Assembly (NCBI GenBank): GCA_027315345.1
Contig: DAHUYE010000088.1
Coordinates: 1 to 60,491, forward strand
DNA from: Actinomycetota bacterium
Lineage (GTDB): Bacteria; Actinomycetota; Acidimicrobiia; Acidimicrobiales; JAJPHE01
Direction: 5' to 3'
DNA: 60,491 nucleotides
In this document: one piece after another, positions 15,577-36,207 of the stretch
How the letters are laid out: the number at the start of each line of letters is the position of its first letter
How positions within the stretch are numbered: the stretch's first letter is position 1
Made by a program: the position numbers and the translations under genes
The notes under the pieces: generated by a model
The model's database searches: none
The model's input: only the letters and a program-made list of their open reading frames with translations
Told to the model about the DNA's origin: nothing

Positions 15577-15948
15577 TCACAGCCGCTTGGGTGGTCCGTC
15601 CCGGTGGCGGGCGAAGCGCCCGATGCCACCCACCTCGAGATCGTGTTCTATCGGATCGATGGGGGTGGCCTGACGGGCACCGAGCGAGCCGAGTAGGCGG
15701 GGAGGCCGGACCGGGTCCGATCCGTACCACAACAGGACCGCGCCGACATCGATGAGTACCCACACCGCCAGCAGCCTCTGCCTGCGCCCGGTGAGCCAGC
15801 CCTGTCCGGGCTCGGGTGCCGAGACCGTCCTGACCGCGGCGGTGTGACCGACCGGGGCGGAGGCGACAGCCCCGGCGGCCGATGCCGGCGCACCGACCCC
15901 CAACCCAACGGCCCCGGCCAGGAGCAGGATCCGCAGGGGTCGTTTCAC
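15577..15948 (-). CDS. Small exported/membrane protein of unknown function
   Basis: 123 residues. The first 30 residues look like a Sec signal peptide (MKRPLRILLLAGAVGLGVG...), and a hydrophobic helix with WVLIDVGAVLLWYG lies near residues 62-76, after a basic GRRQR stretch. The last 45 residues are polar. I recognise no family. The start ATG overlaps the LivF-LivG gene stop by four bases, so it is the last gene of the transporter operon and may be an accessory membrane subunit (inference). Confidence 0.6.
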   Translation of the reverse strand: MKRPLRILLLAGAVGLGVGAPASAAGAVASAPVGHTAAVRTVSAPEPGQGWLTGRRQRLLAVWVLIDVGAVLLWYGSDPVRPPRLLGSLGARQATPIDPIEHDLEVGGIGRFARHRDGPPKRL

Positions 15949-17939
15949 TCCCCGGCTACCGCCGAGGTCTCCGGACCCGGGCCCTGAAGGCTGTCCCGGG
16001 CCGAGACCCTCCTGGACGGATTCGCACTTTGGACGGGGACTGCCTTCTTCGTCCTGGAGACCACCGCTTTCGGACTCGGCGTGACCTTTCCCGACATCCC
16101 CTTGACCGGCGTCGCCCGCTTGACCGGCGTCGCCCGCTTGGCGATGGTCCTCCGTCCCGGCCGGCGAGTATCAGCGCCAGCGAGCGGAGCCGCTCCCCCG
16201 TCTTCAGCGGTCCCCGAGCGCTGGATCACCGCCGCGTCACCGCCCAGGTAGGAACTGACCACCCGGGGATCGCTGATGACGGCATCCGGTTCGTCTTGGA
16301 GCACCACCGCGCCCAGCTCGAGGGCGATTATCTGGTCCGACACGCTGGTGATGAGAGGCATGTCGTGCTCGATGACCAGGAGAGCGCAGTCCGTCTCGGC
16401 CTGGATGCGTTCCAAAAGCGGCCCCAGCGCCTCGGTCTCCCGCTGGGCGATGCCGGAGCTGGGCTCGTCCAGCAGGAGGACCATCGGGTCGTGGGCGATC
16501 GACATGGCGAGATCGACTATGCGCCGGCTACCGGTCGAGAGTTCAGAGACGAACTTGTCGCGAAAGGCGCCCAAGCTCATCAGTTCGATGAGATCGTCAA
16601 CCGTGTAGGCGACATCTGCCTCCGACTCCAGAATGGCCGGCAGGGAAAGCAGAGCGGCCAGATGGTCCCGGGTTTCGATGTGCCGCTCGAGTCCGATGGC
16701 GATGTTCTCTGCCACCGTGAGGGAGGGAAAGATGCGGGCGTCCTGGAACGAGCGACCCAGCCCGGCGGCGGCCCGACGGTCAGCGGGCCACTCGCTCACG
16801 TCGACGTCCTTCAGCCGGATCACCCCGGAATCGGGGATCAAGAGACCGGAGAGAAGATCGAAGATGGTCGTTTTGCCCGCGCCGTTGGGTCCGATCAAGC
16901 CGAGGATCTCGCCCTGATGGAGGGTGAAGGACACCCCGCTCACCGCGTTGATCCCCCCGAAGCGCTTGGTCAGGCCCTGGACCTCGAGGACGGCCGGCCG
17001 CGCCGTTACAGCTCGGCCCCGGCCAGGCCGGTGGGCCATGGCCAAAGCCTTGGCGGGACCGGAGCCGGCGGCCGGGAGCCCATGCCCGGCGGTACCCCCG
17101 CCGCCCGAGGCGGCCCCCTCCAGGAACACCGATCGGAGGATGTCCTCCCGGCCCAGCAGGTCGGCGGTAGGGCCCGAGAAGCGGACTTCACCCTTCTCCA
17201 TGAAATAGGCGCGATCAGCCACGGTCAGGGCGATGTTGACCGACTGCTCGACCAGGATGATGGTGCAGCCCTGGGCGTGGATGGCCCGCACGATGTCCAG
17301 GAGCTGCTCCACGATGGTCGGGGCCAGACCGAGGGACAACTCGTCGATGATGAGGAGCCGGGGCTTGGCCACGAAGGCCATGCCCAGAGCCAGCTGCTGC
17401 TGTTCACCCCCCGAAAGGTTGCCCGCCATCTGATCCCACCGTTCGCGAAGCCGGGGGAACAGTTCCAGCACACTCTGCGTCCGAGCGTCGATCTCGGCAG
17501 GGTCCTCGGCCGAATAGAGCCACGCGCTGGCCCGGAAGTGCTCGGCCACGGTGAGGGTTGGGAAGACAGCCTTGCCCCCGGGCACCTGGATGATGCCCAT
17601 CTTGGCGGTGGTCACCGCGTCGGCATGGGTGATATCCACCCCGTCGAAGACGATTCTTCCAGCTGTGGGGTCGACCAGACCCGAGATGGCCTTGAGCAGG
17701 GTCGACTTACCGGCACCGTTGGTGCCCAGCAAGGCGATGATCTCGTTGCGAGCCACCTCCAGGTCCACACCAAAGAGGATCTGGACCTTGTCGTAGGCGA
17801 CGTCGACCCCCCGGCAGGAGAGATACCCCCCTTCCGATCCGTCGCTCCGGGCCGGCACCCCACCGGGATGCCTATCGAGCACAGGCCCGCCCGACCCCGC
17901 GTCCTTGTCCCGCCGGCGCCCCCTCAAACGGAGGGCCAT
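15945..17939 (-). CDS. Fused LivF-LivG ABC transporter ATPase
   Basis: 664 residues with two complete ABC ATPase domains. The first (about 40-290) is LivF-like: Walker A GTNGAGKST (72-80), LSGGEQQQLALG, LLIIDELSLGLAP. The second (about 315-580) is LivG-like: Walker A GPNGAGKTT near 350, LSTGSRRIVDLAM, VLLLDEPSSGIAQ. It would power a branched-chain-amino-acid-type importer. The C-terminal 75 residues are Lys/Arg/Pro-rich, including a duplicated KRATPV unit. The ATG shares its A with the stop of the LivH-LivM gene (TGATG), so the operon is tightly coupled. Confidence 0.93.
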   Translation of the reverse strand: MALRLRGRRRDKDAGSGGPVLDRHPGGVPARSDGSEGGYLSCRGVDVAYDKVQILFGVDLEVARNEIIALLGTNGAGKSTLLKAISGLVDPTAGRIVFDGVDITHADAVTTAKMGIIQVPGGKAVFPTLTVAEHFRASAWLYSAEDPAEIDARTQSVLELFPRLRERWDQMAGNLSGGEQQQLALGMAFVAKPRLLIIDELSLGLAPTIVEQLLDIVRAIHAQGCTIILVEQSVNIALTVADRAYFMEKGEVRFSGPTADLLGREDILRSVFLEGAASGGGGTAGHGLPAAGSGPAKALAMAHRPGRGRAVTARPAVLEVQGLTKRFGGINAVSGVSFTLHQGEILGLIGPNGAGKTTIFDLLSGLLIPDSGVIRLKDVDVSEWPADRRAAAGLGRSFQDARIFPSLTVAENIAIGLERHIETRDHLAALLSLPAILESEADVAYTVDDLIELMSLGAFRDKFVSELSTGSRRIVDLAMSIAHDPMVLLLDEPSSGIAQRETEALGPLLERIQAETDCALLVIEHDMPLITSVSDQIIALELGAVVLQDEPDAVISDPRVVSSYLGGDAAVIQRSGTAEDGGAAPLAGADTRRPGRRTIAKRATPVKRATPVKGMSGKVTPSPKAVVSRTKKAVPVQSANPSRRVSARDSLQGPGPETSAVAGE
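16101..16136 (-). repeat. 18-bp tandem duplication within the LivF-LivG basic tail
   Basis: The 18-base unit CTTGACCGGCGTCGCCCG occurs twice back to back. It encodes two copies of the hexapeptide KRATPV (minus strand) in the basic C-terminal extension. The copies are identical, indicating a recent duplication in a low-constraint tail. Confidence 0.85.
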
Positions 17940-20254
17940 CAGCCACGCCCCCCGACTTGGACCGCCTCGGAGGCGGTTGGACCTCGCTCGAGATGGGCCT
18001 CGGCCTGCTCCACGATGTCGGCGGCCGCCTCGGCTTCGACCCGCCGGTCGGCCAGGAGCGAGGGAACCAGGATGTCGTGGCGGGCGGCCAGTCGGCGCAG
18101 CCAGTTGTCCCGCATCTGGTAGGCGCCGTCGGCCGTCCCCCCCGGGTACTGAGCCAGGCTGAGCAGCAGCCCTGGGCCGGTTAGAAGAAGGGGCAGAACG
18201 CTGGAAAGAGTCCCTCCCAAGAGATCATACAGCCGCGGACCGAAGGCCACCGACGCCTCGAGGGTCATGGCCCCGAACACGGCAAAGCCCACCGAGCTGA
18301 CCCCGCCGATGGCGGTGGCCAGGAACACGACGATGCTCCCGGTGAGGACGTCATAGCTGAGGGGCACCACGTTGCGCTGGGCGTAGGCGAAGAGCACTCC
18401 GGCCACCCCGCAGATGGCCCCCGACACGGCAAAGGCCGACAGCCGGGTCCGGGTCAGGTTGATGGTGTAGGCCGGGGCGGCCCGCTGGTTGTCCCGGGCG
18501 GCTATGAGCACCCGCCCACTGCGCAGCCGGCGGAACGAGAGAGCCGCGGCCATGCAGGCCACCAGGGCGATGAGGCAAACGAAATAGAACGTCTTATCGC
18601 TGTCCAGGTTGATGCGTCCGTAGAGCAGCGGCCGGCTGAGGTGGGCTGCCAGTCCACTGGGCATTATGTGGCGCCCGATGACGTAGTGGGTGTTCATGAA
18701 GTAGTACTCGATGGCGTAGCCGAAGGCCAGGGTGGTCACGGCCAGGTACAGCCCCTGGATGCGCACGGCCGGCAGCCCGATGAGCACGGCGGCCACGGCG
18801 CCGACCGCGATGCCGAGACCCAGGGCCACGAAGAAGTCGATGTTGTGGTTGGCCACCAGGCCGCCCGAGATGGCCGCCGCCACCCCCACCAGGCCGAACT
18901 GCCCCAGGCTGATCTGGCCCGCCCATCCGGTGAGCACGACCAGGGAGACGGCCACGATCCCGTACAGGGGCAGAAGGATGAGGTAGGGAACGTTGGGCCC
19001 TCCGACCACGAAGGGCAGAAGAATCATGAGCCCGGCCCAGGCGCCGAGCAGGCCGAAGCGACCGAGCCTTACCTCGACCAGGTGACGCAGTTCGGCCGGG
19101 ACGGGCCGGTACATCCGCACGGCTTGCCAGGTGCCCTCCCCGGTGTCCTGGGCCCGGGAGAGGCCCTTGCGCTGCAGCAGCAGCGCCACGATGATGATCA
19201 GGAGCATGAGGGCCTCGGCCAGGCTGCTGTCACCCGTGGTCCCGATGGTGGAGAAGATGATCACGCCGATGGCCATGCCGGCGCCGACGGCCAGGCCGAT
19301 GCGTTCCATGCGGGCGATGACCGCCGCCGCCAGCGCGTACAGCAGGGTGGTGAAGCCCAGGCTGGCATCGCTCGGCACCCCGATGAGGGGGCTCTGGAAG
19401 TAGATGGCGACCGCCGACAGCAGGCCGGCCAGGGCCCAGGCCACCGTGGTGACCCGCTTGACCGGGATGCCCAGAAGCGAGGCCCGGTCGGCGTTTTCCG
19501 CCGACGCCCGCAGGGCGATGCCCATGCGGGTGTAGCGCAGGAAGGCCCCGATGGCGGCGCCCATGATGATGACCACGGCTATGGCCGCCACTTCGTTGCC
19601 GGTGAGCAGGGGCTGGCCCCGGCCGTTGTGGATCATGAGCCTGTCCCAGGGAGTGGGCACCAACGACACGGTCTCGGCGTTGCTCTGCCCGAACATCTTG
19701 GGCAGGAAGAACCCGACCACGGCCAGGGTCTGGGCCACGCCGATGGTGACGACGGTCGTGATTACCCGGGCCGTCTTGGCGAAGTGGCGCATGACCAGGA
19801 TGTCCGTGGCCGCCCCGAACAGCGGCCCGCCCACCAAGGCGATGGGAAGGCAGACCAGGTAGCTGATGTGGTCCTGGACGTTGAGCAGCAGCGCCGCTAT
19901 GGCCGGGACAGCCCCGATCGCCCCGGCGGCGAAGTTGATGAGGCGGGCCGTGCGGTGGATCAGGATGAGGCCGACGGCAATGATCCCGTACAGGGCGCCG
20001 AGGGAGAGGCCCGAGACGAAATCGGCCGGGGAGGTCCCGAAGAGGGCCTCAACGACCGCTACGAAGGCCAGGGCCAGAGCGATGTAGCGGCCCGCCTGAG
20101 GGCCCAGCCCCGGGCGGCCGGCCAGCTCAAGAGCGCGAGCCCAGGCGGTCCGGGCCCCGGTCCAACCGGAGCCGAGCACACCCTCGCCCGGCCCTCCGAC
20201 CGCACCCGGGCGCAACGTAGGCGGTTGAACTTTGGAGTCCGAGTCGACGGTCAT
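17939..20254 (-). CDS. Fused LivH-LivM branched-chain-type ABC permease
   Basis: 771 residues carrying both transmembrane subunits. The first half (about 55-370) is LivH-like (LGALYGIIAVGLILIHRTARLINFA; RASAENADRASLLGIPV cytoplasmic coupling loop). The second (about 395-715) is LivM-like (YGIVAVSLVVLTGWAGQISLGQFG; GLPAVRIQGLYLAVTTLAFG; RDNQRAAPAYTINL coupling loop). Each half has about eight to ten hydrophobic helices. A polar 50-residue cytoplasmic tail follows. Its ATG overlaps the SBP gene stop by four bases. It forms the membrane channel of the importer with the downstream fused ATPase. Confidence 0.93.
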   Translation of the reverse strand: MTVDSDSKVQPPTLRPGAVGGPGEGVLGSGWTGARTAWARALELAGRPGLGPQAGRYIALALAFVAVVEALFGTSPADFVSGLSLGALYGIIAVGLILIHRTARLINFAAGAIGAVPAIAALLLNVQDHISYLVCLPIALVGGPLFGAATDILVMRHFAKTARVITTVVTIGVAQTLAVVGFFLPKMFGQSNAETVSLVPTPWDRLMIHNGRGQPLLTGNEVAAIAVVIIMGAAIGAFLRYTRMGIALRASAENADRASLLGIPVKRVTTVAWALAGLLSAVAIYFQSPLIGVPSDASLGFTTLLYALAAAVIARMERIGLAVGAGMAIGVIIFSTIGTTGDSSLAEALMLLIIIVALLLQRKGLSRAQDTGEGTWQAVRMYRPVPAELRHLVEVRLGRFGLLGAWAGLMILLPFVVGGPNVPYLILLPLYGIVAVSLVVLTGWAGQISLGQFGLVGVAAAISGGLVANHNIDFFVALGLGIAVGAVAAVLIGLPAVRIQGLYLAVTTLAFGYAIEYYFMNTHYVIGRHIMPSGLAAHLSRPLLYGRINLDSDKTFYFVCLIALVACMAAALSFRRLRSGRVLIAARDNQRAAPAYTINLTRTRLSAFAVSGAICGVAGVLFAYAQRNVVPLSYDVLTGSIVVFLATAIGGVSSVGFAVFGAMTLEASVAFGPRLYDLLGGTLSSVLPLLLTGPGLLLSLAQYPGGTADGAYQMRDNWLRRLAARHDILVPSLLADRRVEAEAAADIVEQAEAHLERGPTASEAVQVGGRG

Positions 20255-22065
20255 GGCCGGTTGGTGGGAACCGGGGGCTCGGACAAGGTCGGGAAGTTGG
20301 TCGTGAAGCGGGTCCCCTCGATCGGCACCATCGTCCCCGCGCTCCCGTTGTAGGGGGACGTCTTGGTCTTGTCCCAGTACACCGCTTCGACGTCCCTGGT
20401 CCAGTTGTACTCACCGGGGAGAAAGCCGACCTCGGCCACTCCAGAGGTCCCCCCGCCACGGAGGCCCATGGACGGCGCCGCCGCCTGCATGCGGGCCGGG
20501 TTCAGGGAAGGGCCGGTGTTCTCGATCAGACTGGCCATCATGTTGTAGTTCTCCCACACCGACGTGGCCGTGATGGCGCTCACCGGGAGGTTCGTCCCGC
20601 CCCCGGCCGTGTAGACCTTGGGCCCGGCCATCTGAGCCCCGGCCGGGTAGGGGTAGAGGTCGGACAGACCGAAGGCGTCGTCGTACTCGCACGAGCCCTT
20701 CTGGGGACAGCCCAGTCCGGACATGTAGGACTGGCTGGTGACATCCGTGGTCATCCCCTGGACGTCGGCCAGCACGTTCTCGGGCCAGTAGTTGTGGGAG
20801 GCCTCACCTTCGTAGAGAAAAGCGGGGGCTACCGGGTCGCACAGGCAGAGGACGTCAGTGGCCGGGTTGGTCGGGGTGTCCATGGCCGAGATGCCCGCCT
20901 CCACCTGCTGGGCGGCGGTGTTGATGTCCTGGGCGTAGAAGTAGGTGTGGTACACCTTGTCCCCGCAGTCCTTCTGCAGCGCCGGCTCCAAGACGTTGGT
21001 GACGGTGTTCTCGTTGTCAGGGTCGTTGGTGGAGATGACTCCCAGCACCCGGGGCTTGCCGTTGAAGTTCTGGGCCGGATTGTTGGGCTCGGCAAAGCTG
21101 ACCTTGCGGTTGGTGTTGACGCTGGTTAGCTGCTTGCACCAGAAGGAGGCGAAGTCGGTCTCCATCCGGCTCGAGCTCATACCGGCGCTGTAGTAGAAGG
21201 GGGCGTTGGCATCGGCGAAGCTCTGACTGAAGCCGGCTCCTCCGAAGGCCACCGTGTGGTCCTGGGCCAGACGGGCGAAACAGGCCGAGCACAAGGTCGT
21301 ACCCCAGTAGACGGCGTAGGGGTGGTATTGCGCCACCACGGAGTCCATCTCGGCCAGCAGGCAGGGGTAGTTCGGGGGAACGCTCTGGCACTGACCCTGG
21401 TAGGTGACGATCTTGATCTTCCGGCCCCAGAGCACGTAGTGCTGGTTGATGAAGTTCTGGAAGGCGGCATCGACGGTCTGAGCCTGGGCGTAGCTCTCGT
21501 AAAGGCCCTCGGCCTGGAGGATGGTGTTCACCTCGGCGCCGTAGTCGCTCACGTAGTCGACCAGGGTCACCGAGTTCCCGCTCACGCCCTGGTAGGTGGC
21601 CCCGCCATTGTTGGACATGGCGCCTCCGGGCACGCCCGGAGTGCAGGGCGGCGCGTAGTAGTCCAGGGAGGGGTCGAACTCGCGGCCACCGACACAGTGG
21701 CTGGTGCTGGCCGAGTTGGCCGCCGCCGTCGACCCCGTGCCCCCGCCGCCCGTCGGGCCCGTCGAGCCCCCCGAGCCGCCGCCCGAGGATCCCGCCAAGC
21801 TGCCTCCGGAAGCCCCGCCGCCACCGACTGACCCACCGCCGGAGCCCAGGGACGACCCCCCGCTGGCTCCGGCTGAGCCTCCGCCGGCTACTCCGCCGGC
21901 TGCCCCCCCCGAGGACCCGGTGGAGTAGCCGGCCACCGAGCCGCCGGCGGCAGATAGAGACGAAGAGTTGGATGCCGTGGAAGGCACCACGGCAATGATG
22001 AGGGCCTGCACGGCCACCACCAGAGCCAACGGTAGGTACCGTCGGGCCAATGTCGAACGGTTCAT
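20251..22065 (-). CDS. Anchored periplasmic-binding-protein-like substrate receptor (SBP 1)
   Basis: 604 residues. Layout: short basic start and a hydrophobic helix (ARRYLPLALVVAVQALIIAVV, about 7-27) that is a signal anchor or signal peptide; a Gly/Ser/Thr-rich linker of about 90 residues (30-120); then a Cys-rich receptor domain (CVGGREF, Cys pairs such as CLLAEM, CSACF, CLCDP) with the type I periplasmic-binding fold expected for Liv receptors. No lipobox Cys follows the hydrophobic helix, so tethering is probably by the uncleaved helix. ATG at 22065 follows GGGGGAG. A close paralogue lies at 25579-27369. Ligand unknown. Confidence 0.85.
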   Translation of the reverse strand: MNRSTLARRYLPLALVVAVQALIIAVVPSTASNSSSLSAAGGSVAGYSTGSSGGAAGGVAGGGSAGASGGSSLGSGGGSVGGGGASGGSLAGSSGGGSGGSTGPTGGGGTGSTAAANSASTSHCVGGREFDPSLDYYAPPCTPGVPGGAMSNNGGATYQGVSGNSVTLVDYVSDYGAEVNTILQAEGLYESYAQAQTVDAAFQNFINQHYVLWGRKIKIVTYQGQCQSVPPNYPCLLAEMDSVVAQYHPYAVYWGTTLCSACFARLAQDHTVAFGGAGFSQSFADANAPFYYSAGMSSSRMETDFASFWCKQLTSVNTNRKVSFAEPNNPAQNFNGKPRVLGVISTNDPDNENTVTNVLEPALQKDCGDKVYHTYFYAQDINTAAQQVEAGISAMDTPTNPATDVLCLCDPVAPAFLYEGEASHNYWPENVLADVQGMTTDVTSQSYMSGLGCPQKGSCEYDDAFGLSDLYPYPAGAQMAGPKVYTAGGGTNLPVSAITATSVWENYNMMASLIENTGPSLNPARMQAAAPSMGLRGGGTSGVAEVGFLPGEYNWTRDVEAVYWDKTKTSPYNGSAGTMVPIEGTRFTTNFPTLSEPPVPTNRP

Positions 22066-25578: not shown

Positions 25579-27369
25579 TCAGGGGCGGTTGGTGGGAATG
25601 GGTGGTTCGCTCAGGCTGGGGAAACCGGAATTGAACCGGGTCCCCTCCACAGGGACCATCGTCCCGGCGACCCCGTTGTAAGGCGATGTCCTGGTCTTGT
25701 CCCAGTAGACGACCTCCACGTCCTGGGTCCAGTTGTAGTCCCCAGCCGCGAACCCCACCTGCGCCAGCCCGGAGGCGCCGCCGCCGCGCTCTCCCAGCGA
25801 CGGGGCGGCCGCCTGCATGCGGGCCGGATTCAGATCGGGCCCGGCATTCTCGATCAGGCTGGCCAGCATGTTGTAGTTCTCCCACACGGTGGTGGCGAAG
25901 TCGGCCGACAGCGGCAGGGTGGCTCCGCCGCCGGCGTGGAAGACCTTGTAGCCGGCCAGCTGATCGGAGGCCGACTCCGGGTACAGATCCGACAGGCCGA
26001 AGGTGTTGTCATAGGCGCACTTGTTCCTGTCCGGGCAGGCCAGGCCGGCCATGTAGGACTGGCTGGTGGAGTCACTGCTCAACCCCTGCACGTCGGCCAG
26101 GAGGTTCTCGGGCCAGTAGTTGTTGGAGGACTCGCCCTCGTAGATGAAGGCGGCGGCCACCGGCCCACACAGGCACAACACATCGGTGGCCGGACTGGTG
26201 GGCGTGTCCATGGCCGACATCCCCGCCGCGGTCTGTTGAGCGGCGGTGTTGATGTCCTGAGAATAAAAGTAGGTGTGGGAGATCTTGTCCCCGCAGTCCT
26301 TCTGCAGGGCCGGCTCCAGGACGGTGGTGACGGTGTTCTCGTTGTCCGGGTCGTTGCTGGAGATGACGCCCAGCACCCTGGGCTTCCCATTGAAGTCCTG
26401 GGCTGGATTGTTGGGCTCGGCGAAGCTCACCCTCCGGCCCGAACCGACGCTGGTCAGCTGCCGGCACCAGAAGGAGGCGAAGTCATCCTCCATGCGGGTG
26501 GCGCTCTCCCCGGCGCTGTAATAGAAGGGGGCGTTGGCGTTGGAGAAAGCGTCGCTGAAGCCGACCCCACCGATGGCGACGGTGTGATCCTGGGCCAGCC
26601 GGGCGAAGCAGGCCGAACACAGGGTCGTCTCCCAGAACACCGCATAGGGCTTGTACTGGGAGACGATGGAGTCCATCTCGGCCAGAAGACAGGAGTAGTT
26701 GGGCGGTGAGCTGGCGCATTTGCCGGCGTAGGTGATGATCTGCAGCTTGCGGCCCCACAAGACGTAGTTCTGGTTGATGAAGTTCTGGAAGGCGGTGTCC
26801 AGCGTCTGGGCGGCCGCCACGCTCTCGTACTTGCCCTGGGCCTGCAGGACGGTATTGGTCTCGGCGCCGTAGTCAGTGACGTAGTCCACCACCGTGATGG
26901 TGGTGGCCGTGACTCCCCGATAGGTGGCCCCGGGGTTCGTCTGTTTCGACGCCGGGACACCCGGCGTGCACGGCGGGGCGTAGAAGTCAAGAGCGGGACT
27001 GAACTCGCGTCCGCCCACGCAATGGGCGGTCAGGCTGGCCCCGGACCCCCCGCTCGAGGAGTCCGAACCGGAGACCGACCCGCCCGGTATCGAGCCCGTC
27101 CCCCCGCCCGCCGTCACCGATGACTCTCCGGCCATGCCCCCGGAGTCCGAGATTCCGGACGGACCCGACGACGCCAAGGCAGTCGAACCGCCGGCCGAGG
27201 AGCCTGTGGTCCCGGAGCCGCCGGCGGAGTAACCCGAGACGGAGCCCCCGGACGAGGTGAGAGTGGAGGAGCCCGACCCGGAGTTCGGAACGATGGCGAT
27301 GATGAGGGACTGGACGGCCACCACCAGGGCCAAGGGCAAGTAGCGCCTGGCCAGCGTCGGGCGCCTCAT
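25579..27369 (-). CDS. Anchored periplasmic-binding-protein-like substrate receptor (SBP 2)
   Basis: 596 residues, a close paralogue of SBP 1: same hydrophobic start (ARRYLPLALVVAVQ), a Gly/Ser/Thr-rich linker of different sequence (about 30-115), the same Cys-rich receptor core and nearly the same ending (LSEPP[VI]PTNRP). It stands alone, with no permease in the same transcript. It could feed the four-in-one transporter at 32374, which lacks an SBP gene, or give a second specificity to the first system. Conservation is high in the receptor and low in the linker, so selection acts on ligand binding. ATG at 27369. Confidence 0.85.
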   Translation of the reverse strand: MRRPTLARRYLPLALVVAVQSLIIAIVPNSGSGSSTLTSSGGSVSGYSAGGSGTTGSSAGGSTALASSGPSGISDSGGMAGESSVTAGGGTGSIPGGSVSGSDSSSGGSGASLTAHCVGGREFSPALDFYAPPCTPGVPASKQTNPGATYRGVTATTITVVDYVTDYGAETNTVLQAQGKYESVAAAQTLDTAFQNFINQNYVLWGRKLQIITYAGKCASSPPNYSCLLAEMDSIVSQYKPYAVFWETTLCSACFARLAQDHTVAIGGVGFSDAFSNANAPFYYSAGESATRMEDDFASFWCRQLTSVGSGRRVSFAEPNNPAQDFNGKPRVLGVISSNDPDNENTVTTVLEPALQKDCGDKISHTYFYSQDINTAAQQTAAGMSAMDTPTSPATDVLCLCGPVAAAFIYEGESSNNYWPENLLADVQGLSSDSTSQSYMAGLACPDRNKCAYDNTFGLSDLYPESASDQLAGYKVFHAGGGATLPLSADFATTVWENYNMLASLIENAGPDLNPARMQAAAPSLGERGGGASGLAQVGFAAGDYNWTQDVEVVYWDKTRTSPYNGVAGTMVPVEGTRFNSGFPSLSEPPIPTNRP

Positions 27370-32304: not shown

Positions 32305-32373
32305 TCCCCCACCGCCCCGTTTCCGTCCCCGGGCCCCGGGCTACCATGCGCCCGCCCAAAGGGGGATCATCGG

Positions 32374-35300
32374 GTGATCGAGAGCGTACGGCGGGCAGCC
32401 GACCGGGGACCGGGCGGCCAGCCGGCAGCGCGGTTGGTCGGATGGGGGGCGGCGGCTCTTGTGCTGTGGGGCATCTCCAACGCCCTACTGCCCTCCGGCG
32501 TGCCCGCCGGGGTCATCCTGTGGGGAGCGGTGCTGGGCGCCCTCAGCTCCCTCACGGCCATGGGGATCGTGCTGGTCTACCGCTCCAGCCGGATCATCAA
32601 CTTCGCCCAGGCGGACATCGGAGGATTGGCCGCGGCCGTAGCCGTGGTCATGGTCACCGGCTGGCACGTCTCCTACTTCCTGGCCCTGCCCATCGGCCTG
32701 GCCACAGCCCTGGCAACCGGTTGGCTCATCGACGTGGTGGTGGTCCGCCGCTTCTTCAACGCCCCCCGGCTCATCCTCACCGTGGCCACCATCGGCATCG
32801 CCCAGATCCTCGGCGGCCTGGAGATCGGCCTGCCTTCCCTCTTCGCCCACCTCCAACCCCTGACCACCTTCAAGACCCCGTTCCGCTTCCAGTTCAGCCG
32901 GTTTCCCTTCATCTTCACCGGGGATCACGTCCTGGCCCTGGCCGTGGTGGCGGTGGCCCTGGCCGGCCTGGCCTGGTTCTTCCGCCGCTCCGACACCGGC
33001 ATCGGGATCCGGGCCGCGGCCGACTCCAGCGAGCGGGCCCTCCTCCTCGGGATACCAGTGCGCCGGCTCTCGACCATCACCTGGATCCTGGCCGCCGGCC
33101 TGTCCGGGGTGGCCTCCATGCTCTCGGCGCCGATCCTGGGCCCGAACCTGGGTGGGGTCAGCGGCCCCGAGAGCCTGCTGGCCCCCCTGGCCGCGGCGGT
33201 TATCGCCCGCATGGAGAGCCTGCCGGTGACCCTGGCGGCCGGGATCGGCATCGGGGTCTTCCAGCAGGCCGTCTTCTGGAACTACCCGCGCTCCTCCACA
33301 GTCGATCTGGCCCTGTTCCTGCTCATCACGGCCGCTCTGCTGCTGCAGCGCAAGCGCCTCTCGCGGGTGGACGACCGCGGTCTGGGCGGGTTCGTGTCGG
33401 TGAAAGAGGTCCGCCCGACGCCGCGCCTGTTGTCCGGTCTACCCGAGGTCCAGACCGCCCGCCTGGTGACCTGGCTGGTAGCCGGGGTGTTGGTGGTGAT
33501 CGTCCCCCTGTTCCTCAACAACTCCAAGCTCACCCTGATCGCCTACATCGCCATCTACGGCATCCTGGCCATGTCGCTTCTCATCCTCACCGGCTGGAGC
33601 GGGCAGATAAGCCTGGGTCAGTTCGCCTTTGCCGGCGTGGGCGCCGCCGTCACCTCGTCCCTGCTCGTGCACGCCGGGGCCGATCTGTTCCTCGCCCTGC
33701 TGGCCGGCACAGCCGTGGGGGCGGTGGTGGCGGCCCTGGTCGGTATCCCGGCCGTGCGCATATCCGGTCTCTTCCTGGCCGTGGAAACGCTGGCCTTCGG
33801 CGTACCGGTCAACACCTTCTTCCTCAACGCCGCCTACTTCCCCATCCTCACCCCGGCCCAGGTCTACCGGCCTGTCCTGCTCGACCGCATCGACCTGGCC
33901 GGCCCGTTGGCCTTCTACTACTTCTGCCTGGCCGTGCTGGTGATGGCGGTGGTGATAACCCGTAACTACCGGCGCACCCGGGTGGGGCGGGCGGCCCTGG
34001 CGGTACGCGACAACGAACGGGGCGCATCCGCCTATGCGGTGCCGCCGGTGCGGGCCAAGCTGGTGGCCTTTGCGGTGTCCGGTGGTATGGCCGCCCTGGC
34101 CGGGGGCCTCTACGTCATCGGCCTCCAGGGCATGCCCTTCAGCGGCTTCAACCCCGAGACCAGCCTGGTCATCTTCACCATCGTCGTGATCGGCGGCCTG
34201 GGCTCGATGACCGGCCCCATCCTGGGGGCCATCTATGTCGAGGGGGTCGAGTACTTCCTCCACGGCGCCCTCCAACTGCTGGCCACCGGAGCCGGCCTGC
34301 TGCTTCTGCTCATGTTCCTCCCCGGCGGCCTCGGGGAGGTCTTCTTCGGGTTCCGGGACCGCCTCCTGCGGATCATCGCCCGCCGCCGGGGCCTCAGTGT
34401 CCCGAGCCTGGCCGAGCGCCCGGATTACGCCCCGGAGCCCGACGCAGCCCGGTCCGAGACGGCGGAGGTGGCGGCCCCGGAGGTCCTCGAGGACGACGTC
34501 CGCCCGGCCCGCGCTGGTCGGGCCTCTCGGGACCCGGCGCAGGCCGCCGGCGTCGACCCTCTGATCTCCTGTGTCGACGTGGATGCCGCCTACGGCCAGA
34601 TCCAGGTCCTCTTCGACGTGGGCATGGAGATAGCCGAGGGCGAGATCGTGGCCCTGCTGGGGACGAACGGCGCCGGTAAGTCCACCGTGCTGCGGGTCAT
34701 CTCCGGGCTCATGTCCCCCACCCGGGGCCGGGTCTACTTCCGGGGCCGGGACATCACCCGGCTCAGCCCCATCGAACGGGTCAAGCTGGGCCTGGTGACG
34801 GTGCCGGGCGGCCGGGGCGTCTTCGGCTCTCTCAGTGTCGAAGAGAACCTGCGCCTGGCCGCCTGGCTGACCCGCCGGGACCGGGCCTTCGTGGAAGAGG
34901 CCCGCCGGCGGATCTTCGAATTGTTCCCGGTCCTGTCGGAGCGGGCCCAGACCAGCGCCTCGTCTCTCTCCGGGGGCGAGCAGCAGATGCTCACCATCGC
35001 CCAGGCCCTCCTGTGCCGGCCCAGCCTGCTCATGATCGATGAGTTGTCCCTCGGCCTGGCTCCGGCCCTGGTCGCCACCCTGCTGGGCGTGGTCAGGCAG
35101 ATAAATGCGACCGGTACGACCATCGTGGTGGTCGAACAGTCCGTCAACGTGGCCACCGAGTTGGCCCAACGGGCCCTGTTCATGGAGAAGGGCCAGGTCC
35201 GCTTCAGCGGGGCCACGGCTGACCTGGCCGGGCGCACCGATCTGCTGCGTTCGGTCTTCCTGAGGGGGGCGGCGCCGGCCCGACCGGCCCGATCCCCCCG

Positions 35301-36207
35301 CCGCCGCCAGCCAGCGGCTGAATCGGGCGTGCGACTGAGCGTCCGGGACATGTCCCGCTCCTTCGGGGGCGTAACCGCCGTGGCCGGCGTCGACTTCGAG
35401 GTCGGCTACGGCCAGGTCCTCGGCATCATCGGATCCAACGGCGCCGGTAAGACGACGCTGTTCGACCTCTGCTCGGGCTTCCTCTCCGCCGACCGGGGCC
35501 GAATCGTCCTGGAGGGGAGGGATATCACCGAGCTGCCGGCCTGGGCCCGAGCCCAGCGAGGCCTGGGCCGGGTCTTCCAGGACGCCCGGCTGTTCCCTTC
35601 CTTGACCGTGGCCGAGACCATCGCCGCCGCCTGTGAACGCCACGTCGATGTCAAAGAGCCCCTGGCCTGCCTGTTCCACGTCGGGGCGGTAGCGGACTCG
35701 GAGAAAGCGGTGCGGGCCCGGGTCGACCAACTCATCGCCGACATGGGTCTGGACCGCTACCGCGACGCCTTCGTGGCCGAATTGTCGACCGGCACCCGGC
35801 GCATCGTGGAGTTGGCCTGCGCCATGGCCCACCAACCCAGCGTGCTGCTGCTGGACGAGCCGTCCTCAGGCATCGCCCAGCGGGAGAGTGAAGCCCTGGG
35901 CTCGGTCCTGCTCGACCTGAAGGACCGCACCGGCGCCTCCCTGGTCGTAATCGAGCACGACATCCCCCTGGTCTCCTCCATAGCCGACACCCTGATCTGC
36001 TTGCACCTGGGTCAGGTTCTGGTGGCCGGGCCTCCGGCCCAGGTCCTCAAGGACCCCAGGGTCATCGCTTCCTATCTAGGCAGCGATGACGTCACCATCG
36101 CCCGTTCCGGCCGACGGCCGACCCCGGCCCGGGCGGCCAAAGCCAAGCCGGCCAAAGCCGCGGCGAGGTCGATCAGGAAGGCGACCGGCGGTCAACTCAA
36201 GAAGTGA
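32374..36207 (+). CDS. Four-in-one LivH-LivM-LivF-LivG ABC transporter
   Basis: 1277 residues in one uninterrupted frame. Order: LivH-like permease (about 1-330; GIVLVYRSSRIINFAQ), LivM-like permease (about 350-690; ILTGWSGQISLGQFAF, VGIPAVRISGLFLAVETLAFG), a polar linker (about 690-728), LivF-like ATPase (729-965; Walker A GTNGAGKST near 763, LSGGEQQMLTIAQ) and LivG-like ATPase (987-1230; GSNGAGKTT near 1019, LLLDEPSSGIAQ), then a Lys/Ala-rich tail. All catalytic motifs are present. GTG at 32374 follows AAAGGGGGAT. A full importer minus its receptor is thus one polypeptide; no SBP gene is adjacent, so SBP 2 is the nearest candidate. Confidence 0.93.
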   Translation: MIESVRRAADRGPGGQPAARLVGWGAAALVLWGISNALLPSGVPAGVILWGAVLGALSSLTAMGIVLVYRSSRIINFAQADIGGLAAAVAVVMVTGWHVSYFLALPIGLATALATGWLIDVVVVRRFFNAPRLILTVATIGIAQILGGLEIGLPSLFAHLQPLTTFKTPFRFQFSRFPFIFTGDHVLALAVVAVALAGLAWFFRRSDTGIGIRAAADSSERALLLGIPVRRLSTITWILAAGLSGVASMLSAPILGPNLGGVSGPESLLAPLAAAVIARMESLPVTLAAGIGIGVFQQAVFWNYPRSSTVDLALFLLITAALLLQRKRLSRVDDRGLGGFVSVKEVRPTPRLLSGLPEVQTARLVTWLVAGVLVVIVPLFLNNSKLTLIAYIAIYGILAMSLLILTGWSGQISLGQFAFAGVGAAVTSSLLVHAGADLFLALLAGTAVGAVVAALVGIPAVRISGLFLAVETLAFGVPVNTFFLNAAYFPILTPAQVYRPVLLDRIDLAGPLAFYYFCLAVLVMAVVITRNYRRTRVGRAALAVRDNERGASAYAVPPVRAKLVAFAVSGGMAALAGGLYVIGLQGMPFSGFNPETSLVIFTIVVIGGLGSMTGPILGAIYVEGVEYFLHGALQLLATGAGLLLLLMFLPGGLGEVFFGFRDRLLRIIARRRGLSVPSLAERPDYAPEPDAARSETAEVAAPEVLEDDVRPARAGRASRDPAQAAGVDPLISCVDVDAAYGQIQVLFDVGMEIAEGEIVALLGTNGAGKSTVLRVISGLMSPTRGRVYFRGRDITRLSPIERVKLGLVTVPGGRGVFGSLSVEENLRLAAWLTRRDRAFVEEARRRIFELFPVLSERAQTSASSLSGGEQQMLTIAQALLCRPSLLMIDELSLGLAPALVATLLGVVRQINATGTTIVVVEQSVNVATELAQRALFMEKGQVRFSGATADLAGRTDLLRSVFLRGAAPARPARSPRRRQPAAESGVRLSVRDMSRSFGGVTAVAGVDFEVGYGQVLGIIGSNGAGKTTLFDLCSGFLSADRGRIVLEGRDITELPAWARAQRGLGRVFQDARLFPSLTVAETIAAACERHVDVKEPLACLFHVGAVADSEKAVRARVDQLIADMGLDRYRDAFVAELSTGTRRIVELACAMAHQPSVLLLDEPSSGIAQRESEALGSVLLDLKDRTGASLVVIEHDIPLVSSIADTLICLHLGQVLVAGPPAQVLKDPRVIASYLGSDDVTIARSGRRPTPARAAKAKPAKAAARSIRKATGGQLKK

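Follow-up and report, generated by a model that had tools for sequence, protein, structure and literature searches.

In the window analysed here (a 60,491-nucleotide stretch of DNA from an Actinomycetota bacterium of the order Acidimicrobiales), all four parts of a Liv-type ATP-binding cassette (ABC) importer core are encoded by a single gene. The core of LivHMGF is made up of four separate proteins, the permeases H and M and the ATPases F and G. The gene at 32374-36207 on the forward strand starts with GTG and runs as one open frame without internal stops for 1277 codons, which by residue count gives a product of about 135 kDa. Comparison with related loci predicts that this product is probably an importer core in a single chain, both genuine and conserved. 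The window, contig C95, belongs to a genome of 3.84 Mb in 106 contigs that is 97.7% complete.

Pfam identifies two BPD_transp_2 and two ABC_tran domains in the chain, followed by a BCA_ABC_TP_C domain at the C-terminal end. Scored singly against NCBIfam, the domains match best, in order, the UrtB/LivH, LivM/UrtC, UrtE/LivF and LivG/UrtD models, and the order H-M-F-G is therefore correct. The presence of a whole Liv-type core in one chain, which a preliminary description of this DNA had read from the uninterrupted frame, is thus supported. Having two BPD_transp_2 domains, one LivF-like ATPase and one LivG-like ATPase with BCA_ABC_TP_C, as in Liv/HAAT systems broadly defined, the single chain is, judged by its domains, a member of the broad Liv/Urt group. 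Scores stay below the NCBIfam equivalog cut-offs both for the E. coli-type proteins (LivH 41 of 379 bits, LivM 79 of 366, LivF 190 of 441, LivG 188 of 362) and for the Urt proteins (UrtB 49 of 250, UrtC 75 of 296, UrtD 186 of 304, UrtE 199 of 286), and since no domain reaches either, no substrate is claimed. A urea transporter, suggested by the whole chain passing the UrtE model, was rejected as a candidate because that score sums two ATPase stretches, F alone giving the value above. Pfam searches of 20 neighbour proteins and of the window proteins gave no shared hint of a substrate.

H, M, F and G share one frame at 37 distinct loci in 33 sampled genomes (36 loci from searches, and locus L163), which excludes a chance or assembly artefact. 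The frame is closed at both ends in 29 of these loci and leaves the fetched stretch in eight, four of which hold only 111-168 residues of G. Each genome counted has at least one locus that was read with all four domains in one frame, and divergent chains could miss the threshold (E ≤ 1e-190), so that the genome counts are lower bounds. All three genomes searched from the family of the window contain single chains, five altogether: two in the window's own genome, two in G001 and one in G002. The second chain of the window's genome, on contig C103, is 62% identical to the window protein. Matches were found in 28 of 99 genomes sampled from the order, in 8 of 100 drawn from the class (four of them among the 75 genomes outside the order), and in 2 of 149 drawn from the phylum, namely the window's own genome and one of another class.

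The window protein shares 43-67% identity with 22 other chains aligned over their length; with the window among them, 23 of 31 loci entered this alignment, the others being cut at an end or, in L011, of unsure start. Among 36 single chains the domains are conserved and the linkers between BLAST-defined domain ends are variable (29-122 aa between M and F, 14-174 aa between F and G). The nearest relative, on contig C160 of G001, belongs to another genus and is 66% identical. Both copies are preceded by genes for a carboxylesterase and a DNA ligase and followed by one for a BNR-type propeller protein, whereas an AI-2E transporter and an enoyl-CoA hydratase gene are present only in the window and an additional 506-residue gene follows the chain only in G001.

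The best 80 of at least 565 relatives from a scan of named genomes with two ATPase patterns contained no H-M-F-G frame, which says little; the two best E-values among these 80 belong to L066 (an Actinomycetota metagenome-assembled genome, MAG) and L067 (an Acidimicrobiales MAG). A plasmid search matched at least 5000 records, ten of which were listed, three with 80% query coverage at one place, and the Embleya record alone was read. A viral scan gave no match. Among the matches listed from the open-licence literature (titles and abstract openings), there was no paper on a single-chain importer core. Chains of this kind may well be present in annotation databases with non-specific names.

The two ATPase domains are unequal. 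F contains GTNGAGKST, LSGGEQQ, a Walker B DE and, where the H-loop His is expected, EQ; the corresponding motifs of G are GSNGAGKTT, LSTGTRR, DE and EH. The Walker B Glu is residue 890 in F and residue 1162 in G. An LSGGQ-type signature and an H-loop His are therefore not found in both domains, as two consensus sites would have them; with LSTGTRR as the G signature and Gln in the F H-loop, degeneracy of one ATP site is to be expected. Motifs were counted without L009, L023, L015, L065, loci from L151 onwards and short segments, and with named unfused proteins limited to 200-320 aa. The F signature is LSGGEQQ in 34 of 36 single chains and LSGGQQQ in the other two, and the H-loop Gln is present in all 36, in all 15 split F-G proteins and in 68 of 75 named unfused F proteins (His in three). 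Thr occupies the third place of the G signature in 31 of 33 readable single chains (three to four of the 36 being unreadable in G because the locus ends) and in all 15 split proteins; in named unfused G proteins this place is Tyr in 39 of 59 and His in 11. Since split and unfused relatives carry the asymmetry, it was not caused by fusion, and the degenerate site is, on these motif counts, a family trait. The earlier statement that all Walker A/B and signature motifs are intact stands for the Walker motifs and for LSGGEQQ of F, and fails for LSTGTRR of G and the Gln in the F H-loop; for the signatures it holds if read as loosely as is customary for LivF/LivG. ABC ATPases usually pair head to tail, with the Walker motifs of one domain meeting the signature of the other, and by this pairing the consensus site would consist of the G Walker motifs and the F signature.

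For the membrane part, an AlphaFold2 (AF2) model of H-M was built from five sequences, and one of F-G from four. The H half (model residues 1-295) aligns with eight chains, comprising BtuC, HmuU, BhuU, PsaC and like importers, at Z 12.8-16.7, the next row being at 8.0, and is predicted to have the Type II importer permease fold (BtuC/FhuB). FhuB (PDB 7lb8), a natural double permease, aligns across both H-M halves (Z 12.4, 422 residues) and is also placed first by Foldseek (E 0.0085). Short helices are modelled at the expected coupling-helix positions of both halves (Table 1).

The direction of transport is suggested by neighbouring genes. At 20 single-chain loci chosen for wider flanks, a binding-protein-like gene adjoins the single chain in 16, in two of these (L163 and L167) on the opposite strand. 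The adjacent genes resemble those of the window at 20251-22065 and 25579-27369, and the 11 with a clear frame encode 531-617 residues. By eye, the sequences viewed show an N-terminal hydrophobic segment, in most cases a stretch rich in Gly, Ser and Ala, and after these a binding-protein-like domain; binding proteins may be free, membrane-tethered or permease-fused (an excerpt of PMC9045158). Pairwise distances among the adjoining binding-protein-like proteins mirror those among 16 transporters (Mantel r 0.889; none of 9999 permutations as high), which makes an importer the best reading. Because shared descent of neighbours inflates r, a pair within one genome is the better control, and in G005 two paralogous single chains are each accompanied by the binding-protein-like version of their own lineage. 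The single chains thus appear to be tied to binding-protein-dependent import.

Several results weigh against a single-chain importer. The H-M model is weak (mean predicted local distance difference test score, pLDDT, 61), H being better than M, in which long stretches fall below 50; no Foldseek hit for it is as low as E 0.001; the sole match to the M half comes by way of FhuB, rows for residues 346-549 alone reaching at most Z 5.3. The domains of the F-G model are fair (pLDDT 76), but its predicted template modelling score (pTM) is low (0.49), and the pairing of F with G is putative. Peripla_BP_6 was detected in one of nine binding-protein-like members tested (L161, 30.1 bits against a cut-off of 31.7), and neither of two members matched an NCBIfam model. 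An adjoining binding-protein-like gene is absent from the window copy and from four of the 20 loci (L152, L155, L158 and L168), two of which are on short contigs (L155, 9.8 kb; L168, 6 kb).

This last point raises the question of whether the window copy, with the binding-protein gene beside it lost, has given up binding-protein-dependent import and now acts by itself, works as an exporter or is decaying. None adjoins the gene in the inspected close relatives L152 and L155 either (the latter with the small contig just mentioned), and the second single chain of the same genome has a binding-protein-like gene of its own. The window copy nevertheless retains its ATPase motifs and those residues that do not vary among 23 chains, and such a change is unlikely given that the same genome has two orphan binding-protein-like genes from the matching clade. 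These genes, at C80:40767-42539 and C22:26602-28353, lie on the branch that matches the transporter clade of the window, the two paralogues in the window being on another branch than the partner clade of the single chains, and none of the genome's 41 PF02653 (BPD_transp_2) matches is on either contig. Both are candidates, by their tree position, for serving the window copy.

It is similarly doubtful, and slightly more so, that the chain is made whole and then cut, or that F-G is also produced from an internal start, the working complex then consisting of separate subunits. The long and variable M-F linker would be a plausible protease site, but for the five start codons that lie in frame within 34300-34640 the motifs tried revealed no ribosome site at a suitable distance, and the frame is kept across linkers of 29-122 residues in 36 of 36 loci although these genomes also encode H-M and F-G of this subfamily as two genes. 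Far less credible is an assembly or sequencing error that fused an ordinary H-M / F-G pair. The genome is in many contigs and the same domain order is present in the window as two genes, yet the architecture is found in 33 genomes, including the copy from another genus with common flanking genes, and for the family this explanation is already refuted. The coding signal is also unbroken across the M-F linker of the window copy, with a third-position G+C of 0.90 in the true frame, a test that is valid for this copy and not for every relative, as linkers are lower than M in L064 (0.62 vs 0.95) and L053 (0.67 vs 0.85).

In the single-chain importer favoured here, the H and M halves would form the transmembrane pathway and F and G would pair below it, a linker of about 60 residues allowing F-G to reach under the membrane domains. 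A binding protein, probably held by its N-terminal hydrophobic segment, would bring the solute, and ATP would shut F onto G. Hydrolysis would occur mainly at the site formed by the G Walker motifs and His with LSGGEQQ of F, whilst the other site (F Walker motifs and Gln with LSTGTRR of G) would bind ATP and turn it over slowly. We infer intramolecular assembly, the direction of import and the identity of the working ATP site; a fixed 1:1:1:1 stoichiometry may reasonably be expected, with swapped dimers as an alternative.

As to origin, the window contains a second system in which H-M and F-G are two fusion proteins with a one-base junction, TGATG, present at 17941-17937 on the reverse strand as first described, and the preliminary description proposed that loss of a stop in such a pair could have produced the complete fusion. 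At TGATG, the F-G frame begins one base ahead of the next H-M codon, and because of this offset stop loss alone would not join the pair. Trees were inferred by quick searches, are unrooted and carry only Shimodaira-Hasegawa-like approximate likelihood ratio (SH-aLRT) support; segments shorter than 550 aa (H-M) or 450 aa (F-G) were omitted, as were L009 and L023 (copies of window rows) and all loci numbered from L151 upwards (copies, together with L163 as the 37th single chain). In the H-M tree the window protein falls within a clade of 23 single chains (SH-aLRT 100), including the copy from another class, and further single chains are found elsewhere, some by split systems (L148/L149 beside L066/L067). 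H-M of the nearby pair groups with L035/L037, and in the F-G tree its F-G protein nests among F-G proteins with a long N-terminal part. The two trees and the frame offset rule out the nearby pair as direct ancestor, and with the pair not a sister and the single chains not one clade, the proposed origin by stop loss is not supported for this pair.

An approximately unbiased (AU) test rejected one clade of all 36 single chains (p 0.00063; 36 single against 14 split rows, without L065), from which it follows that the single-chain form was gained or lost more than once. The single-chain label changes four times on the H-M tree, at least two of the changes being forced by starred branches, and five times on the F-G tree, at least three being forced; the latter count includes L015, which is open at a contig end and is perhaps a cut single chain. 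As the trees are unrooted, repeated fusion and the splitting of single chains are equally possible. The chances are about even that single-gene cores with two transmembrane domains followed by two nucleotide-binding domains (TMD-TMD-NBD-NBD) are widespread in the order and have repeatedly arisen from, or been broken up within, a fast-rearranging Liv subfamily, some of them having abandoned a binding-protein gene of their own and sharing binding proteins from other loci. In this reading the arrangements of the subfamily are H-M plus F-G, H-M plus MFS-F-G, and MFS-F plus H-M-G, where MFS denotes a major facilitator superfamily domain.

In L066 (3120-6155, forward strand, 1011 aa), the long N-terminal part of the F-G protein is an MFS transporter domain in Pfam. 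Similar N-terminal parts occur in L014, L016-L018, L021, L025-L028, L034 and L067, their MFS identity being taken from L066 only, and a long N-terminal part is seen in 12 of the 16 split F-G proteins placed in the tree. Even stranger than the single chain is an MFS domain joined to Liv-type ATPases in one protein that is accompanied by an H-M permease and a binding protein. Another split of the same parts is found in L065 (plasmid of Embleya sp. NBC_00888, 4501-10971), where a 754 aa MFS and LivF-like ATPase protein is followed by a 937 aa H-M-G protein and a 451 aa binding-protein-like protein, the MFS and binding-protein readings being by eye. The window's own genome (G000) is rich in Liv-type domains, its 41 BPD_transp_2 matches being many for 3.84 Mb, and many pairs of them share a frame with room for H and M together. 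A further binding-protein-like gene in it (C12:22406-24108) matches in two pieces in differing frames and is perhaps broken or misread. The proteins encoded at 20251-22065 and 25579-27369 have a hydrophobic N-terminal segment and then long Gly/Ser-rich stretches, with no Pfam match.

Table 1. Features of the single-chain gene and of related genes in the window.
Feature	Coordinates	Strand	Basis
Single-chain H-M-F-G ABC importer core (predicted), 1277 aa	32374..36207	+	Open frame, domains, same architecture at 37 loci
AGGGGG, likely ribosome-binding site of the GTG start, ending 8 bases upstream	32360..32365	+	Sequence
H, LivH-like permease domain	32518..33324	+	PF02653; best NCBIfam models UrtB/LivH
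H predicted coupling helices, residues 207-224	32992..33045	+	Low-confidence AF2 H-M model; nearby invariant R221, A222, L225, G226
M, LivM-like permease domain	33532..34317	+	PF02653; best NCBIfam model LivM
M predicted coupling helices, residues 536-553	33979..34032	+	Low-confidence AF2 model; invariant G538, R539, R545
M-F linker, varying among relatives	34378..34557	+	Alignment; 29-122 aa in 36 single chains
F, LivF-like ATPase	34573..35226	+	UrtE/LivF models; PDB 1ji0
F signature LSGGEQQ, residues 865-871	34966..34986	+	Alignment; motif counts
F H-loop position, Glu-Gln replacing His, residues 921-922	35134..35139	+	Motif counts
F-G linker	35269..35328	+	Alignment; 14-174 aa in 36 single chains
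G, LivG-like ATPase with BCA_ABC_TP_C tail	35335..36081	+	Pfam, NCBIfam
G signature LSTGTRR, degenerate, residues 1137-1143	35782..35802	+	Alignment; motif counts
F-G fusion of the nearby system, one-base overlap TGATG, other frame (comparison)	15945..17939	-	Domains; frame; tree
H-M fusion of the nearby system (comparison)	17939..20254	-	Domains; no sister relation to the single chain in the H-M tree
Binding-protein-like gene of the nearby system, not beside the single chain	20251..22065	-	Similarity; own tree branch
Second binding-protein-like paralogue, 75% identical to the first	25579..27369	-	Similarity; tree

A one-gene importer core would, if the prediction is correct, make each ATP site and each permease half separately mutable in a particle of fixed 1:1:1:1 composition. 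The role of asymmetric ATP sites in import could then be tested in a way that homodimeric or four-gene importers make more difficult. Repeated gain or loss of fusion within one subfamily would also make the order of the fusion steps, and their benefit, accessible to comparative study.

Among known systems, the Liv/HAAT importers (LivHMGF with LivJ/K in E. coli) have the same four kinds of domain, and their unfused relatives in named genomes share the H-loop Gln of F and a G signature other than LSGGQ. The single chain differs from them in a binding-protein family that is poor in Pfam matches and in domains that score below the E. coli-type cut-offs. As to the urea importers UrtABCDE, the domains score about equally against Urt and Liv models. 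HAAT permeases have about ten membrane segments (an excerpt of PMC3654945). FhuB of the ferrichrome importer FhuCDB (PDB 7lb8) resembles the single chain in having two permease halves in one polypeptide. Unlike the single chain, FhuB is without ATPase domains. RbsA and NupO of Bacillus subtilis, and Rv1281c of Mycobacterium tuberculosis and DppD, the last two near the top of the PDB hits for the ATPase half, have two ATPase domains in one chain, and in these systems the permeases are separate proteins. RbsA and NupO are described, in an excerpt of PMC11466899, as fused double ATPases with one degenerate site. ABCB1 and like full-length eukaryotic ABC exporters also unite every domain of the core in a single polypeptide of about 1280 residues, a length close to that of the chain in the window. 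Their order is TMD-NBD-TMD-NBD, and their membrane fold is different. The single chain, by contrast, is ordered TMD-TMD-NBD-NBD and is predicted to have permeases like those of BtuC and FhuB.

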